This document shows, piece by piece, positions 17,133 to 30,831 of a stretch of 34,177 nt of DNA. How positions within the stretch are numbered: the stretch's first letter is position 1; each line of letters opens with the position of its first letter. The notes below the pieces were generated by a model, which was given only the letters and a program-made list of their open reading frames with translations, was not told where the DNA came from and searched no databases. The DNA comes from Ruminococcus sp. (lineage in GTDB: Bacteria > Bacillota > Clostridia > Oscillospirales > Ruminococcaceae). The translations under genes and the position numbers were made by a program. The stretch covers positions 1 to 34,177 of the forward strand of contig NZ_JAFYYT010000016.1 in assembly GCF_017549005.1 (NCBI RefSeq), in the 5' to 3' direction.

Positions 17133-19247
17133 TCAGAAAAAACTCTTTATCTTGCCGAGGAGGTATTCCTGAATACGGAGAGCGTCATTTGAAGTAACAC
17201 CCTCGCTTGTCTTGTCAACATCAGCATTTTCTCTGCCCTGTACTGTGAGACAGTGCTCGTCTGTACCGCCTACGCCGTACTTGTTGGGGTTAGCAAGGCT
17301 CTGCATGATGAGAACTGCGTCACCCATGTCGATCTGTCCGTCACAGTTAGCGTCTCCTGCCAATGTAACAGGAAGCTGACCTGTTACTATTGTAGTTGTG
17401 GTTGTAGAAGTTGTCTTGTCATCTGTTGTTGTAGTTGTAGTGGTCGTTTTCTTTTCCTCTGTAGTTGTTGTGGTGGTAGTAGTTGTCGTTGTTGTCGCAG
17501 AAGTTGTGGTAGTTGTTGTTACCTTGTTATCGCCTGCGATAGTAGTTCTTACAGGGTCAGAAGCTGTCTTGCCGTCAACTATCGACTTGAATGCAGGCTT
17601 AGCCATGAAGTCCTTGTCGAATATGAGCGGATTCTGTGAAGCTCTCCAGCTCTTGGGGTCTGTGATTCCCCAGAAGATAACTGCCGAGATCTTGTCAGCG
17701 TACTTCTCATAGAGGTCGAAGAGGCCCTTGTAGTACTTAGCCTGTACGTCGAAATACTTGTCGCCTGAGTGCTCCTGTACTGTAGCGTCGAGCTCTGTGA
17801 TCTGAACGTCGAGACCGAGGCTTGTGTACTTCTTGAGTGCACTCTCGTACATACCGAGTGACGGGAATGCAGCGTCAAGGCTCTGTCTTACGTCAAGGTG
17901 AGACTGCATACCGATACCGTCGATATTGCCTGCCTTCTTAAGTCTCTCAGCCATTTCGCATACAGCGTCGAGCTTGCCTGTCATATATTCGTTATAGTCG
18001 TTGTAGTAGAGCTTGCAGCCCTTGGGAGCATACTGTCTTGCATACTCGAATGCATAGTCGATGAATGAGTTGTCACCGAATACAGCGACCCAGTCAGAAG
18101 CGCCGTAGTTGTTGGACTGGCTGCAGTGACCTGCCTCACGGGGCTTTCCGTCGTCTGTCCATGCCTCGTTAACAACGTCGCAGGCATAGAAGTTTACGTC
18201 AGGATAGAGCTCTGTGAGAGTTGTGAAGTAGCTCTTGATGTAGTTTTCCATACGCTTCTTCATCTTGTCGGGAGAAACGTAGTCCTTCTTCTCGTCGTAG
18301 TCCTCCTTGAAGAACCACTCAGGAGTCTGGCTGTGCCATACAAGAGTGTGGACTCTTACAGGGATACCGTACTTTCTTGCATAGTTGAGAACAGGCTTTG
18401 CCTGTGAGAAGCTTATCTGAGGAGTCTCGTCGTCGCCTGTCTCCTCGAAGTATGCAAGGGTCTTGGCCTTGTTGAGAACATAGTCGGGCTTCATCTGGTT
18501 GCCGACTGTGATGCTCTCGCCGAAGTGCTTCTGGAGAAGATCCATGAATGGCTGTGAGGACATATCCTCAGGTGAAAGGGCAGTTCCTATCTTGAACTTG
18601 TCCTTGTATATCTCGCTGAGTGAAGGCTGATCGCTCTCAATCTCCACACGGGGAGCTTCTGTGATCTTTACGTCGTCGATGAATATGGACTCCTGGCCGC
18701 CCTCGAAGTATACGTATACGCCTTCCATGCCCTCTGAATAGCTGATAGGAACATTCTTTATCTCAGCCCAGCCGTTTCCGCCGCCGCTGGTTGCCTGAAT
18801 GTTCTGCTTGAGGTTGGAGTATGAGGTGTCTCCGTCAACGCTGAACTGGAAGCTGAGTGTGGTGTTGGTGTACCATTCTCCTCTTACCGAGCAGGAGAAG
18901 TAGTACTGTGTGTCAGGCTCAAGGAAGCCGTCCATGCGGAATGCGGGACCGTGCCATGTGTCGCCTCTCTCGGTAGCGGAAAGTCCGCTTTCGCCGCTCT
19001 TTGCAGCGTCCTTTGAGATAGCAACTACTGTTTTATCGTCGCCGCCTCTGTTTGACCAGTGCTCGAGGTCAGCCTCGCTCTCGAATCCGCACTCGTAAAC
19101 TACTTTGCCTTCTGATGATGCAGTTGTGATGCCGTTGAGCTGTATCTGTGCGGGTGCTACCGCGTGAACAGCCGAAGCCGAAGCTGAAAGCGTCATTGCT
19201 GCACTCATAACGCCAGCTATAAGCTTCTTGAAGTTTTTTCCTCTCAT
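17133..19247 (-). CDS. Cellulosomal endo-1,4-beta-xylanase: CBM22-GH10-dockerin
   Basis: The protein has 704 residues from the ATG at 19247, 8 nt after GGAGG. The signal peptide is about 1-31. A CBM22-type carbohydrate-binding module follows (about 45-195: YECGFESEADLEHWSNRGG ... IFIDDVKI), then the GH10 catalytic domain (about 205-560). In it the general acid is Glu361 in DVVNEAW and the nucleophile Glu485 in QITELDAT; the RVHTLVWHSQTPEWF strand is also typical. A Thr-rich linker (about 577-625) leads to a type I dockerin (635-704) with two calcium loops, the first GDANCDGQIDMGDAVLIMQ and the second diverged (ADVDKTSEGVTSNDALRIQEYL). It hydrolyses xylan outside the cell, docked on a cellulosome scaffoldin. 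It has its own promoter. Confidence 0.97.
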   Translation of the reverse strand: MRGKNFKKLIAGVMSAAMTLSASASAVHAVAPAQIQLNGITTASSEGKVVYECGFESEADLEHWSNRGGDDKTVVAISKDAAKSGESGLSATERGDTWHGPAFRMDGFLEPDTQYYFSCSVRGEWYTNTTLSFQFSVDGDTSYSNLKQNIQATSGGGNGWAEIKNVPISYSEGMEGVYVYFEGGQESIFIDDVKITEAPRVEIESDQPSLSEIYKDKFKIGTALSPEDMSSQPFMDLLQKHFGESITVGNQMKPDYVLNKAKTLAYFEETGDDETPQISFSQAKPVLNYARKYGIPVRVHTLVWHSQTPEWFFKEDYDEKKDYVSPDKMKKRMENYIKSYFTTLTELYPDVNFYACDVVNEAWTDDGKPREAGHCSQSNNYGASDWVAVFGDNSFIDYAFEYARQYAPKGCKLYYNDYNEYMTGKLDAVCEMAERLKKAGNIDGIGMQSHLDVRQSLDAAFPSLGMYESALKKYTSLGLDVQITELDATVQEHSGDKYFDVQAKYYKGLFDLYEKYADKISAVIFWGITDPKSWRASQNPLIFDKDFMAKPAFKSIVDGKTASDPVRTTIAGDNKVTTTTTTSATTTTTTTTTTTTEEKKTTTTTTTTDDKTTSTTTTTIVTGQLPVTLAGDANCDGQIDMGDAVLIMQSLANPNKYGVGGTDEHCLTVQGRENADVDKTSEGVTSNDALRIQEYLLGKIKSFF

Positions 19248-19283
19248 AGTTAATTCCTCCAAAAAATAAATTTTTGTGTCTAT

Positions 19284-27008: not shown

Positions 27009-27126
27009 AAAAAATGAATTAATATAAACGTACTATTCTTAGTGGGACTTTAGTAAATCTTAGCAAATCAAATGTTAAATTATAAAATTACATGTTTGAA
27101 TACAACACTTACGTTTCTTTTATCGA

Positions 27127-27237
27127 ATATTCATTATGAATGAATTCATTATACGGTTGAAAGTAACATTTAAATATGATAGTATAATATAGAAATATTA
27201 ATTTGTATCGTCAACTATAAATGAAAGGAGGAGGAAA
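27127..27237 (+). promoter_or_regulatory. Control region of the sigma factor operon
   Basis: The last 110 bp before the sigma gene hold a perfect palindrome AATGAATTCATT (27139-27150) and two direct copies of TTCATTAT. A TTGAAAGTAACATTT block is followed by TATAAT at a spacing of 20 bp, too long for sigma-A, so an ECF-type -35 (GTAAC-like) is possible. A strong AAAGGAGGAGG ribosome site ends the stretch. From 27010 to 27126 I see only AT-rich sequence without signals. Confidence 0.4.
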
Positions 27238-27801
27238 ATGACACATCGTGAATATCGTCTGCTATTAAAAACAGACACAACCAAAGCTCAGAGAGCTGTT
27301 TTTAACGAATACTTTAATTATGTATATGTGATAGTCCAAAATCGTCTGGGAAGCTGTGGGCAGCGTGAAGATATTGATGAATGTGTCAGCGATGTTTTTA
27401 TTGATGTTTTCTACTCCTACGATTTGGATATGTTTATCACAGGCGATATTAAAGGCTTTATTGGAAAGATAGCATACAGAAAGGCAACTGATTATTTTCG
27501 CAGGCTTTCAAGATTGCCTGTTTCTGTTTCTATTGATGATGACTCAGAGGAAACGTTTTCTGCTGCAGATGATGTTCAAAAAAGAACTGAAAATAATGAG
27601 ATACGGCGAATACTGCTTGAACTTATTGACGGTCTTGGCGAACCTGACGCTACAATAATAATACAGAAATACTTTTACAACCGCAATTCAAGAGAAATAT
27701 CACAGATTGTACCACTTGCGCCTGTTTCGATAAGAATACGAAGCATTAAAGCACTGCGGAAACTGAAAAAGATGTTTAATGACAGGAATATCACAATATG
27801 A
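27238..27801 (+). CDS. ECF-type RNA polymerase sigma factor
   Basis: The protein has 187 residues, the length of an ECF sigma factor. Region 2 spans about 20-95 (FNEYFNYVYVIVQNRLG ... EDIDECVSDVFIDVFYSYD ... FIGKIAYRKATDYFRRL, the helix that opens the -10 element). A short acidic linker follows, then region 4 at about 122-180 (EPDATIIIQKYFYNRNSREISQIVPLAPVSIRIRSIKALRKLKKM), a helix-turn-helix for the -35. It heads an operon: the putative anti-sigma gene follows after 15 bp and a solute-binding lipoprotein gene overlaps that. This makes it a likely trans-envelope signal switch. The AT-rich codon use differs from the backbone genes. Confidence 0.93.
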   Translation: MTHREYRLLLKTDTTKAQRAVFNEYFNYVYVIVQNRLGSCGQREDIDECVSDVFIDVFYSYDLDMFITGDIKGFIGKIAYRKATDYFRRLSRLPVSVSIDDDSEETFSAADDVQKRTENNEIRRILLELIDGLGEPDATIIIQKYFYNRNSREISQIVPLAPVSIRIRSIKALRKLKKMFNDRNITI

Positions 27802-27816
27802 AAGGAGTAGGTAAGT

Positions 27817-29061
27817 ATGAAAAGCAAGATTAAAAGAATGTTTCAGAATGCGGACAATGATTTTTTAAACACGCTGGCTGAACGCTATCCTGCGGCTGGC
27901 ATTAAGGAACGTGAAAAAATATACATTATGATATCCAAAAAAAACGGTAGTGCGGATAATTACCAGTACGTTGATATAGTGCGGGGCATGGATATATACC
28001 GTCGTCCTAAATGGCATAAAGCCGCAGCTGTTACAGCCTCACTAGCCGCGACAGTTTTGGGTATCTCAGGTACTTTTTATTCTCTGAGTCGTTTCAGTGC
28101 TCCGGGCGAAAGTTCCACAAACCAGTACCATTCCGTCGAAGAATCTACAAAGGTTATACCACCTGAAATTGACATCACAACTAAAGAAGGTATTTATCAG
28201 AAGATGCTTAATAGTATTTACTACTATGACAAGGTATCAGGAGAGCTTGTACTAAGTACAGAGAATTCAACAGATTCCCTAATTATTGATTTTGAATCCG
28301 ACCTTGAAAAATCACTTTCATATAGTAATTCAGAGAAAGTTAAAGTACTTTTTGACAATGACAACTATATCAGGGAAAATGAACTGTTCACCTATTGCGA
28401 CGGTAATAAAATTTATAAGGTCGATACTTTAAACAAAACGACCGAAATGTACGGCTATGCTACAAAACGAAGCGAAATGACCGATACAAACGACAATCCT
28501 GCTCGTTATTCCGATGTAACAAATCTTCCTTATGTATCTACTGCTCTGATGCCGCGCCTGTCAGTGCTGGAGTTGATAAAAAACTCCGAAAACTGGGAGA
28601 TATCGGGAACAGAAATATATCTTGACAGAGAATGCACCATTATCACCGGTGATAATAAGGAAGTATATGCTGATGAGCACGATATTTTAAGCTATTGGCT
28701 TTGTGTCGATAATAAAACAGGAGTTATACTGAAATATTTTGATTCCTTTCTGTCGGGAGAATATCAGCACGTTATGCTTATGAGGAATATCGCCTTTGAC
28801 GATGATGTGGAGGTCAGGGATTTGGCGGATTATGTGCGTTCGGAGTCTCTTTCATCATATGATTCGGGAAACAATCTCACGGTAACAGCAGCTGTGGTAG
28901 GATATAATGAAAGGACAGGTTTCATTATAACCAATGAAATATTTAGTTACCCCGATCCCGCACATCTTGTTTTGAATGTTTATGATACTGATCTGAAAAC
29001 TGTTATTGATGAATTTAGATTTGTCAACTATGAGGCAGAAAGAGAGAAAATAGTAAAATGA
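27817..29061 (+). CDS. Putative anti-sigma factor, single-pass membrane protein with large outer domain
   Basis: The protein has 414 residues with an AAGGAG site. Its layout is that of a transmembrane anti-sigma factor. There is a cytoplasmic N-terminal part of about 65 residues (NDFLNTLAERYPAAGIKEREKIYIMI), one membrane helix at about 69-90 (AAAVTASLAATVLGISGTFYSL), a Ser/Thr linker, and an outer domain of about 300 residues. The outer domain has many short strands and the phrase YWLCVDNKTGVILKYFDS, resembling the strand pair of MucB/RseB- or LolA-like folds. The N-terminal part lacks a clear zinc motif (no HxxxCxxC). The role is inferred from position behind the ECF gene. The next gene starts within its stop codon (ATGA). 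Confidence 0.7.
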   Translation: MKSKIKRMFQNADNDFLNTLAERYPAAGIKEREKIYIMISKKNGSADNYQYVDIVRGMDIYRRPKWHKAAAVTASLAATVLGISGTFYSLSRFSAPGESSTNQYHSVEESTKVIPPEIDITTKEGIYQKMLNSIYYYDKVSGELVLSTENSTDSLIIDFESDLEKSLSYSNSEKVKVLFDNDNYIRENELFTYCDGNKIYKVDTLNKTTEMYGYATKRSEMTDTNDNPARYSDVTNLPYVSTALMPRLSVLELIKNSENWEISGTEIYLDRECTIITGDNKEVYADEHDILSYWLCVDNKTGVILKYFDSFLSGEYQHVMLMRNIAFDDDVEVRDLADYVRSESLSSYDSGNNLTVTAAVVGYNERTGFIITNEIFSYPDPAHLVLNVYDTDLKTVIDEFRFVNYEAEREKIVK

Positions 29062-30548
29062 AAAAGAAATTAATGACTTTGGCTTTGACAGCCTGTACTA
29101 TATTCACAGGCTGTTCGAACAAGACAGGTAGCAGCTCATCATCTGCTGAAAAAGTGCATTCTGACGGTACAGGCACAGCTGCACAGGAAAATGCTGTCAA
29201 CAAAGAGGATATCGTCATAACACTGGGACTATTGAGCGAGCCCGAGGATGAGGGACTGATCAAGGCGATAGACGATTTCAACAACGCCGACAACGGCTGC
29301 CGTATCGAAACAGAATATATGTCAAGCCGTTATGATGAGGACGGCATCATTCACGGTTATACAGATGAAGAAATATCAAATATTGATTTTAATACCATAC
29401 AGATGATAATGAAAGACGGCGGTCCTGACATAATCGGCGGCGGTACCTTCGGTGACAGTGCAAAATATGAGCTCCTGAAGCAGAAGGGCGCTTTCGCCGA
29501 TCTCTATAAATTCATGGAGAACGATCCCGAAGTGAATACCTCTGCTCTCGATAAGCATATCCTTGAACTTAACGAATTGGACGGCAAACTGTACAGTATT
29601 CCTCAGTACTATGATGTACACACCATTATCAGCAAAAGCGAATACGGCGGCACCAAGCAAAACTGGACTATCGGCGAATTCATTGACCATTGGAACTCTA
29701 TGCCTGAGGGTTCAACCATAGAGGGCTCAAACTGTGCCGAGTACATATTCTATAATCTTCTCCGTGAGAATCTTCCCTCATTTGTTGACGAGAAAAACAT
29801 AAAGGTGAGCTTTGATTCGGAGGATTTCAGAAAGATGCTGGAGTTCTGCAAACAGTTCCCGAGCAACAACGGTCAGAAGGCTGATTATGACTATACTGCT
29901 CCAAGGTTAACAGGTAAATATTGGATAAAAAGTGTAAGCGATGCTATCTACAATGAGACAAACTATCAGACCTACGAGCAGAAGCAGTACCGTCTGCGCG
30001 ACGGCGATTATACTCTTGTGGGCTACCCGACCTCTGACGGCAGCGGTGCATATCTTTCCACAGACTATCCCGGCTGGTCAATAAGCGCAGCCTCTTCCGA
30101 TGAGAAACAGGAGGCGGCATGGAAGTTTATACGTCAGTTCTATACTGAGGAATTCCAGACCGAAAACGGAGTTATTGGTAATGAGTATCTTGACGACAAA
30201 GGCGAGAAAAAGATATACTACTCGACTGATCTCGGCTTCTGCATAAATAATGCCGCCCGAAAAAAGATAGCTGAAAATATTATCAGCGGTATGTATGATT
30301 CAGAAGAGCCCGAGTATGCTCAAGGCCACGAGATAACGATAGATAAGCTTAAACTTGACGAGAAGGACTGCGAGTTCATCGAGAACTATGTCAATTCCAT
30401 TGACCGCTGGGATACAAGAATTGACAGAGAGCTTTGGTGGATAGTGAACGATGAGGTGCTTACCTGTCTCGGCGGCGGTCAGAGCGTTGACTCTGCAATT
30501 GATATGATACAGAACCGCGCTTCGCTTTGGGTAAGTGAGAGATATTAA
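29058..30548 (+). CDS. Solute-binding lipoprotein coupled to the sigma/anti-sigma operon
   Basis: The protein has 496 residues and its ATG overlaps the anti-sigma stop by 4 bp, so translation is coupled. The lipoprotein signal ends in FTGC (Cys19), with a Ser-rich tether. The mature part is a family 1-type extracellular solute-binding protein: IVITLGLLSEPEDEGLIKAIDDFNNAD, then GGPDIIGGGTF, LDGKLYSIPQYYDVHTIIS, and the WKFIRQFYTEEFQ helix near the C-terminus. No ABC permease or ATPase is encoded anywhere in the window. Being translated with an anti-sigma factor suggests that it delivers a ligand signal to that protein's outer domain. It is longer than, and only distantly similar to, the orphan binding protein at 1648-3009. 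Confidence 0.88.
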   Translation: MKKKLMTLALTACTIFTGCSNKTGSSSSSAEKVHSDGTGTAAQENAVNKEDIVITLGLLSEPEDEGLIKAIDDFNNADNGCRIETEYMSSRYDEDGIIHGYTDEEISNIDFNTIQMIMKDGGPDIIGGGTFGDSAKYELLKQKGAFADLYKFMENDPEVNTSALDKHILELNELDGKLYSIPQYYDVHTIISKSEYGGTKQNWTIGEFIDHWNSMPEGSTIEGSNCAEYIFYNLLRENLPSFVDEKNIKVSFDSEDFRKMLEFCKQFPSNNGQKADYDYTAPRLTGKYWIKSVSDAIYNETNYQTYEQKQYRLRDGDYTLVGYPTSDGSGAYLSTDYPGWSISAASSDEKQEAAWKFIRQFYTEEFQTENGVIGNEYLDDKGEKKIYYSTDLGFCINNAARKKIAENIISGMYDSEEPEYAQGHEITIDKLKLDEKDCEFIENYVNSIDRWDTRIDRELWWIVNDEVLTCLGGGQSVDSAIDMIQNRASLWVSERY

Positions 30549-30733: not shown

Positions 30734-30831
30734 TAAGACAGGTGATAAAGTGTACGTGATTAAGGTGCGAAAAAGAAATGAGATAAATACAGAAAGGGAA
30801 TCGGGTATCAATAAATAAAGGAGTGTTTTTT

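Follow-up and report, generated by a model that had tools for sequence, protein, structure and literature searches.

Contig NZ_JAFYYT010000016.1 of a Ruminococcus sp. genome (assembly GCF_017549005.1; 3.33 Mb, 94% complete) was analysed over its positions 1 to 34,177, and this stretch of 34,177 nucleotides is here called the window. It contains a row of three genes for a sigma factor of the extracytoplasmic function (ECF) type, a one-pass membrane protein that is a putative anti-sigma factor and a solute-binding protein (SBP) of the lipoprotein type (Table 1), and our subject is the part that the SBP may play in the sigma factor switch. The original prediction, made from the sequence alone, had described the order, spacing and overlap of these genes, and the open reading frames (ORFs) were found exactly as described: the first two genes are separated by 15 bp, and the start of the SBP gene and the stop of the anti-sigma gene share the 4 bp ATGA (29058-29061). 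As also described, no permease or ATPase gene follows the SBP gene at this locus. The next gene, starting at 30823, is an ORF of 928 amino acids (aa) with a dockerin-like end that scores 14.3 bits, below the Pfam cut-off of 22.9.

Table 1. Positions of the operon features within the window.
Feature	Position	Strand	Basis
ECF-type promoter (candidate)	27104-27142	+	common to upstream regions of family sigma genes
ECF sigma factor, 187 aa	27238-27801	+	ORF list; NCBIfam sigma70-ECF over cut-off
Putative anti-sigma factor, 414 aa, one-pass membrane protein	27817-29061	+	ORF list; N-terminus shared with paralogs
Membrane helix of anti-sigma factor, residues 69-91	28021-28089	+	hydropathy; helix in AlphaFold2 model
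Outer RseB/LolA-like domain of anti-sigma factor, residues 120-361	28174-28899	+	predicted fold
SBP lipoprotein, 496 aa	29058-30548	+	ORF list; Pfam SBP_bac_8 over cut-off

The sigma factor has regions 2 and 4 only and matches the NCBIfam sigma70-ECF model with 55.1 bits (cut-off 42.9); the Pfam matches to the two regions come in the correct order, and both are under their cut-offs. Like the SBP of an ABC importer, the lipoprotein combines an SBP match (Pfam SBP_bac_8, 32.6; cut-off 27) with an N-terminus that, judged by eye, is a signal peptide with a lipobox-like FTGC at its end. It had been called a family 1-type protein, which holds in spirit, as we take the two groups to belong to the same superfamily, although the actual match is to SBP_bac_8. 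Its closest solved relative, both by sequence (E 1e-8) and by predicted fold (pLDDT of the SBP model 69), is the sugar-binding protein CbpC (7x0o) of C. thermocellum, but CbpC is an SBP of a transporter, and we know of no link between it and a sigma factor. The 414-aa protein matched no family over the cut-off in Pfam or NCBIfam, anti-sigma domains included. It has a single membrane segment at about residues 69-91 according to hydropathy and the AlphaFold2 model, its N-terminus presumably faces the inside of the cell, and comparison of the model with known folds predicts an outer domain of the RseB/LolA type.

A shared promoter motif and fifteen paralogous pairs

The candidate promoter consists of AACACTT (27104-27110), 13 bases, CGAATA (27124-27129), 5 bases and TATGAATG (27135-27142). 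Upstream regions of 94 sigma genes of the same family, here called family A, were compared; 67 gave a candidate site and 34 of the sites scored well. In 28 of these 34, the starts of AACACTT and TATGAA are 31 bases apart, as in the window, and GAATA or a similar element usually stands between them. A scan of the window genome with up to three mismatches returned 27 sites, against 14 for the reversed pattern; of these 27, eight closely precede sigma genes of the family, at C6, C49, C12, C41, C15:138884, C26, C50:25474 and C52:175370 (C denotes contigs of the window genome, G genomes and L fetched loci or stretches; the window genome is G000); these counts are a consistency check only, because the pattern was drawn partly from the same sigma genes. 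The only other listed site with CGAATA, at C24:1102, lies inside an ORF of the opposite strand near a resolvase-like gene and was taken as a chance match. Since the shared motif precedes the operon, the SBP is probably part of a self-activating operon.

The neighbouring dockerin gene had been named as a possible target of the switch. This suggestion was rejected: at up to three mismatches the window has a single site, upstream of the sigma gene, and none before the dockerin-like gene. Furthermore, the genome contains 151 Dockerin_1 matches at E<=10, so that a dockerin neighbour says little. Elsewhere in the window, on the reverse strand (17133-19262), there is a gene for a GH10 xylanase with CBM4_9 and a dockerin.

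Promoter sites were also observed before other genes of the window genome. The site at C23:12716-12751 (L287:4717-4752) ends in CCGATTGTTGTTTATGAA, as does the site before the sigma gene of C12 (L023), and precedes a gene for a secreted protein of 487 aa with a sub-threshold dockerin. The N-terminal repeats of this protein resemble the outer domain of the C12 anti-sigma factor (39% and 34% identity), and it is possibly a target that shares the fold of the sensor. At C31:134778-134813 (L286), a one-mismatch site stands before genes for a small lipoprotein and a GH43/ricin-lectin/dockerin enzyme. This small lipoprotein is 34% identical to one encoded on C3, whose gene likewise has a promoter site in front (two mismatches) and is located two genes ahead of an SBP paralog 65% identical to the window SBP.

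The window genome contains 15 family A sigma genes, and the other 14 products are 36-52% identical to that of the window. In all 15 cases the next gene, at a distance of -4 to +15 bp, encodes a one-pass protein (359-656 aa) with a membrane segment that starts at residue 60-79, and a cognate gene beside the sigma gene, with a helix after a short N-terminal part, is the arrangement typical of anti-sigma factors. As the pairing is complete within this genome and the same order recurs in other genomes, it is not due to chance. In a wider census of 80 loci, three (L181, L194 and L208) were dropped because no sigma ORF was over the threshold; 75 of the remaining 77 have an anti-sigma match with a membrane segment next to the sigma gene, and the other two have a match without a membrane segment over the threshold and, at L207, no match.

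The N-termini of the one-pass proteins align across the window and its 14 paralogs, and the outer parts vary. A search with the window protein matched eight of the 14 other partners, seven of them via the N-terminus, and among the eight of 14 partners whose outer modules were scanned, PASTA was found in C50 and Big_14 in C53. Distances between sigma factors correlate with those between N-termini (r 0.76 over 91 pairs, with no more than 0.12 in 500 shuffles), also within the window genome (r 0.62, reached by none of 2000 shuffles), a correlation that could be explained by co-inheritance alone. We infer from the pairing and the shared N-terminus that the 414-aa protein acts as an anti-sigma factor that holds the sigma factor at the membrane.

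Fusions and split operons in two sigma factor families

We searched 125 genomes of the same genus, with at most 11 candidates per genome, for proteins in which an anti-sigma N-terminus and a membrane helix are joined to an SBP. At least seven such natural fusions (543-595 aa) are present, in at least five genomes, and the search makes seven a lower bound. Three of them are encoded side by side in G063 (L165/L171, Ruminococcus sp. RGIG6695), each behind an ECF sigma gene, and one L171 sigma factor with a fused partner is 60% identical to that of the window; G034 (L132), G098 (L296), G003 (L313) and G101 (L314) have one fusion each. Four of the seven (one in G063 and those in G098, G003 and G101) are directly followed by genes for the permeases MalF and MalG. 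Five of the six scanned fusions passed a Pfam SBP cut-off (L171 a-c, L313 and L314); the one in G034 had no Pfam match, yet scored 381 bits against our own SBP profile, and the L296 fusion, which was outside the Pfam scan, scored 113 bits against the same profile. The fusions in G003 and G098 are 80% identical and thus conserved across species rather than accidents of assembly.

The fusions belong to two ECF families, that of the window (A) and a second one (B) with an anti-sigma factor starting YDLF..GELPE, and split and fused forms occur in both. The family B split operons, identified in four genomes (L092 in G064, L322 in G007, L323 in G016 and L324 in G012), consist of genes for a sigma factor, an anti-sigma factor and, overlapping the latter by 4 bp, an SBP lipoprotein, and no permease gene is present within the stretches fetched. 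By eye, we made out GTGTAACCTTT upstream of the family B operons and, in several of them, also a CGTA element. Judged by gene order and overlap, this is the design of the window repeated in a second ECF family. A family B anti-sigma/SBP copy, with its anti-sigma gene cut short by the contig end, is also present on C45 of the window genome.

A tree of 99 SBP domains (FastTree, with long-branch warnings; L313 and L314 left out) places the G034 fusion across a branch with support of 100 from the four other placed fusions. The SBPs of the family A fusion L171c and the family B fusion L296 are sisters (100, flagged as two long branches meeting). Judging from these placements, anti-sigma factors have probably acquired the sensor on more than one occasion. 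Among five further loci examined, one contained a fusion (L296) and four did not, and another 12 gave two fusions, three family B split operons and seven loci with neither. L316, with 12.8 bits to the anti-sigma profile, was rejected and taken as a lipoprotein with its start called too early; L319 and L320 have a weak ECF-like gene in divergent orientation. No fusion was found outside the genus in 297 genomes of the wider family, with at most four candidates scored in each.

Neighbours of the binding protein and its nearest ortholog

Relatives of the window SBP at E<=1e-30 are encoded in 93 of the 125 genomes, and many of these are proteins of about 800 aa with an SBP end. Sixty stretches were fetched around the shorter, lipoprotein-type relatives and, together with the window and C3, they make up 62 scored loci; L166 and L167 (unscored) and the SBP on C45 (below the count threshold) are outside this set. 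The original prediction was to be given up if such lipoproteins were normally encoded with permeases and if their adjacency to the sigma/anti-sigma pair was unique to this locus. Neither is the case: permease-like genes lie within three genes of the SBP at two of the 62 loci (L075 and L078; at L110 one lies more than three genes away), and the same gene order is seen in the nearest ortholog described below and in the second ECF family.

An ECF-like sigma gene lies within three genes of the SBP at 14 of the 62 loci, which represent fewer than 14 events because four of them (L086, L088, L089 and L115) resemble one orthologous group; at another, L077, the sigma match is marginal (E 5e-4) and on the opposite strand. 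At the four similar loci, an ECF gene of a third type is accompanied by genes for a one-pass protein (475-507 aa) and for one or two lipoproteins of the SBP type, with no permease gene within three genes. ECF-like genes account for 17 of 265 genes within three places of the SBP versus 1 of 125 beyond that distance (Fisher p 0.008 over 62 loci), and SBP-type genes for 7 of 183 beside the sigma/anti-sigma pair versus 6 of 543 further away (77 loci; p 0.024), both p values being too small by an unknown amount because the loci are related. Every locus with any of the six far SBP-type genes contains a near one as well. The near gene lies behind the pair in L169, is fused in L171 and lies in front in L172, L184, L192, L205 and L220. 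At L184, L192, L205 and L220 the SBP-type genes are divergent from the pair and form clusters of two in L205 and three in L220.

The nearest ortholog, L169 (the L075 locus) of the uncultured Ruminococcus RUG127, has a homologous order of sigma factor, one-pass protein and SBP, which are 71.5%, 55% and 75% identical to those of the window. The SBP is the best conserved of the three; its dN is 0.163 and its dS, at 1.63, is close to saturation, which shows that it has been kept under selection without adjoining permeases. Behind the SBP gene, L169 has genes for MalF and MalG (Pfam BPD_transp_1), followed by HlyD-like and FtsX-like genes. The co-encoded permeases of an ABC importer are thus present in L169 and absent from the window, which may reflect a loss in the window or, just as well, a gain in L169.

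Two broader claims of the original prediction have to be given up. The lipoprotein is not a constant companion of the pair, since the window pair is the only one of 15 in its genome with a relative of this SBP behind it, and L170, with a sigma factor identity of 75%, has the pair and lacks the SBP. Likewise, it is not true that such lipoproteins never occur with ABC permeases, given MalF and MalG in L169 and behind four of the seven fusions. At C35 of the window genome another lipoprotein-like gene, unrelated to the window SBP, follows the pair. C55 of the same genome (L044) contains a MalF/MalG pair that is 76% and 68% identical to that of L169, together with its own SBP of 824 aa. The C55 cluster is an unusual importer cluster of MalF-MalG, HlyD-like and FtsX-type genes, similar to those of L169, and its SBP has a long N-terminal extension, with homologs of about 800 aa in many genomes of the genus. 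In G063 and G098, all the relatives of this importer SBP that we found are sigma-linked.

The binding protein as the proposed input of a sigma factor switch

We propose, with a probability of roughly 0.6, that the window operon encodes a self-regulating switch of ECF sigma and anti-sigma factor, which takes its external input from a binding protein, probably for oligosaccharides, like those of ABC importers. The proposal builds on the gene order, the shared promoter motif, the sigma/one-pass pairing and the fusions, all of which are established by the sequences themselves. That an inhibitor and a binding protein are fused in rumen Ruminococcus relatives suggests that the SBP is the antenna of the switch, and in our best reading it binds the ligand on behalf of the anti-sigma factor, as a separate protein in the window and in fused form elsewhere. 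The idea of the SBP as a sensing partner was already part of the original prediction; it has gained from the fusions and from the split order repeated in a second ECF family, whereas the direct contact between the two proteins is a step that we infer.

In the proposed mechanism, the 414-aa anti-sigma factor would hold the sigma factor at the membrane via its N-terminus, and the lipid-tethered SBP would bind its ligand and contact the RseB/LolA-like outer domain of the anti-sigma factor. Anti-sigma factors of the RseA/RsiW type are controlled by regulated proteolysis. Contact with the SBP would change the state of the anti-sigma factor, probably its exposure to such proteolysis, and the freed sigma factor would transcribe its own operon and thereby produce more SBP, in a positive loop. 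Our best guess for the ligand is an oligosaccharide, by analogy with CbpC and from the way of life of the host.

Several observations weigh against the SBP as input. Only 7 of the 77 sigma loci have an SBP-type gene beside the pair and no ECF-like gene lies within three genes of the SBP at 48 of the 62 SBP loci, although absences are partly unseen because some loci stop at contig ends, and the relatedness of the loci weakens both enrichments. Between the window and L169, the conserved N-terminus of the anti-sigma factor is 48% identical and the outer domain 57%. The AlphaFold2 model of the anti-sigma factor is weak (mean pLDDT 56, below 50 in the cytoplasmic part). Furthermore, the outer part of the window anti-sigma factor is a predicted RseB-like domain and not an SBP, so that the fusions demonstrate the principle rather than this particular contact. 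Finally, plain import may be the old or main job of the SBP, because the SBP of L169 sits with MalF and MalG.

The last point leads to the most serious alternative, which we consider unlikely yet far from negligible: the switch senses something else and controls genes for sugar uptake, and the SBP, the sole remnant of these in the window, now serves permeases encoded elsewhere, such as those on C55. The RseB/LolA fold binds lipids or peptides in known cases, and the predicted outer domain of this type would give the anti-sigma factor an input of its own. The row of SBP, MalF, MalG, HlyD-like and FtsX-like genes behind the pair in L169 and the similar permeases on C55 also speak for this explanation, but C55 already has its own SBP, and neither the seven fusions nor the family B operons of four genomes, with no permease gene in the stretches fetched, are explained by it. 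It is improbable, in our view, that the SBP acts as a feedback brake, made by the active switch and, when unliganded, keeping the anti-sigma factor inhibiting. RseB protects RseA and thus inhibits, and the outer domain fold and the position of the SBP gene behind the promoter motif of the sigma family would fit such a role, which modifies the sensor model and does not contradict it. That the SBP gene has come to lie behind the pair by chance, with a meaningless 4-bp overlap, agrees with the 14 own-genome pairs and L170 that lack it but is strongly disfavoured by its retention in L169 at 75% identity, the enrichment of SBP relatives near ECF genes, the fusions and the second-family operons.

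A bolder version of the sensor reading, which we put forward tentatively and with less than even confidence, is that the binding protein of an importer has become the outer half of an anti-sigma factor, with the window as a split, permease-less branch. In G063, G098, G003 and G101, the ECF sigma factor, the anti-sigma/SBP fusion and MalF-MalG are encoded in one gene row, and ligand capture or permease docking could therefore directly gate the sigma factor. Sensing and import would be coupled in such relatives, where the fused sensor is often encoded with MalF-MalG. If true, this would be a Gram-positive counterpart of Fec-type transport-coupled signalling.

Known systems share parts of this design. 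RseA/RseB-RpoE and MucA/MucB-AlgU combine an ECF sigma factor with a membrane anti-sigma factor, and the fold match suggests that they resemble the window in having a LolA-fold regulator on the outside. However, RseB and MucB are separate two-domain proteins, whereas the RseB-like domain of the window is part of the one-pass anti-sigma factor itself, with the SBP as an extra partner. In LuxP-LuxQ, ChvE-VirA and XylFII-LytS, a periplasmic-type binding protein reports its ligand to a membrane signalling protein. The output of such SBP-coupled proteins is a kinase or chemoreceptor, whereas for the window we propose release of a sigma factor. SigI/RsgI operons are autoregulated. The analogy with SigI/RsgI in the original prediction holds as a functional likeness but not as kinship: the sigma factor is of the ECF type and the system itself could be ruled out, as no RsgI_N domain (PF12791) was found in the window genome, 94% complete, with a positive control in B. 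subtilis. In Acetivibrio (Clostridium) thermocellum, SigI/RsgI is described as comprising one-pass anti-sigma factors with a carbohydrate-sensing outer module in many paralogs (PMC11557425, PMC12484212). The window genome resembles this in its sigma factors with one-pass anti-sigma factors, in the proposed sensing of glycans outside the cell and in its many paralogs. In SigI/RsgI, however, the sensor is a carbohydrate-binding module (CBM) for a polymer, whereas here it would be a two-lobed SBP for a soluble ligand, split or fused, and no CBM family was found over the Pfam cut-off in the 414-aa protein. In PbpP/RsiP/SigP of Bacillus thuringiensis, a separate ligand-binding protein is described as sensing upstream of the anti-sigma factor (PMC8092216). 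That sensor, as described there, is a penicillin-binding protein, whereas that of the window is an SBP. To our knowledge, no fusion of sensor and anti-sigma factor is known in this system.

Our searches of the literature by title and abstract, the main ECF classification paper aside, returned no anti-sigma factor with an SBP sensor, and SBP-bearing anti-sigma factors are probably new to the literature. According to a 2024 survey, among cellulosome bacteria only those of the Acetivibrio type use RsgI receptors (PMC11557425), and on that account the means by which plant glycans are sensed in ruminococcal bacteria with cellulosomes look like an open question. The window genome has 15 paralogous pairs, their outer modules being varied, and a related promoter site before a GH43-dockerin enzyme gene. 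SBP-bearing anti-sigma factors would be a new type of input for ECF switches, and the fusions make the idea of an SBP input directly testable.

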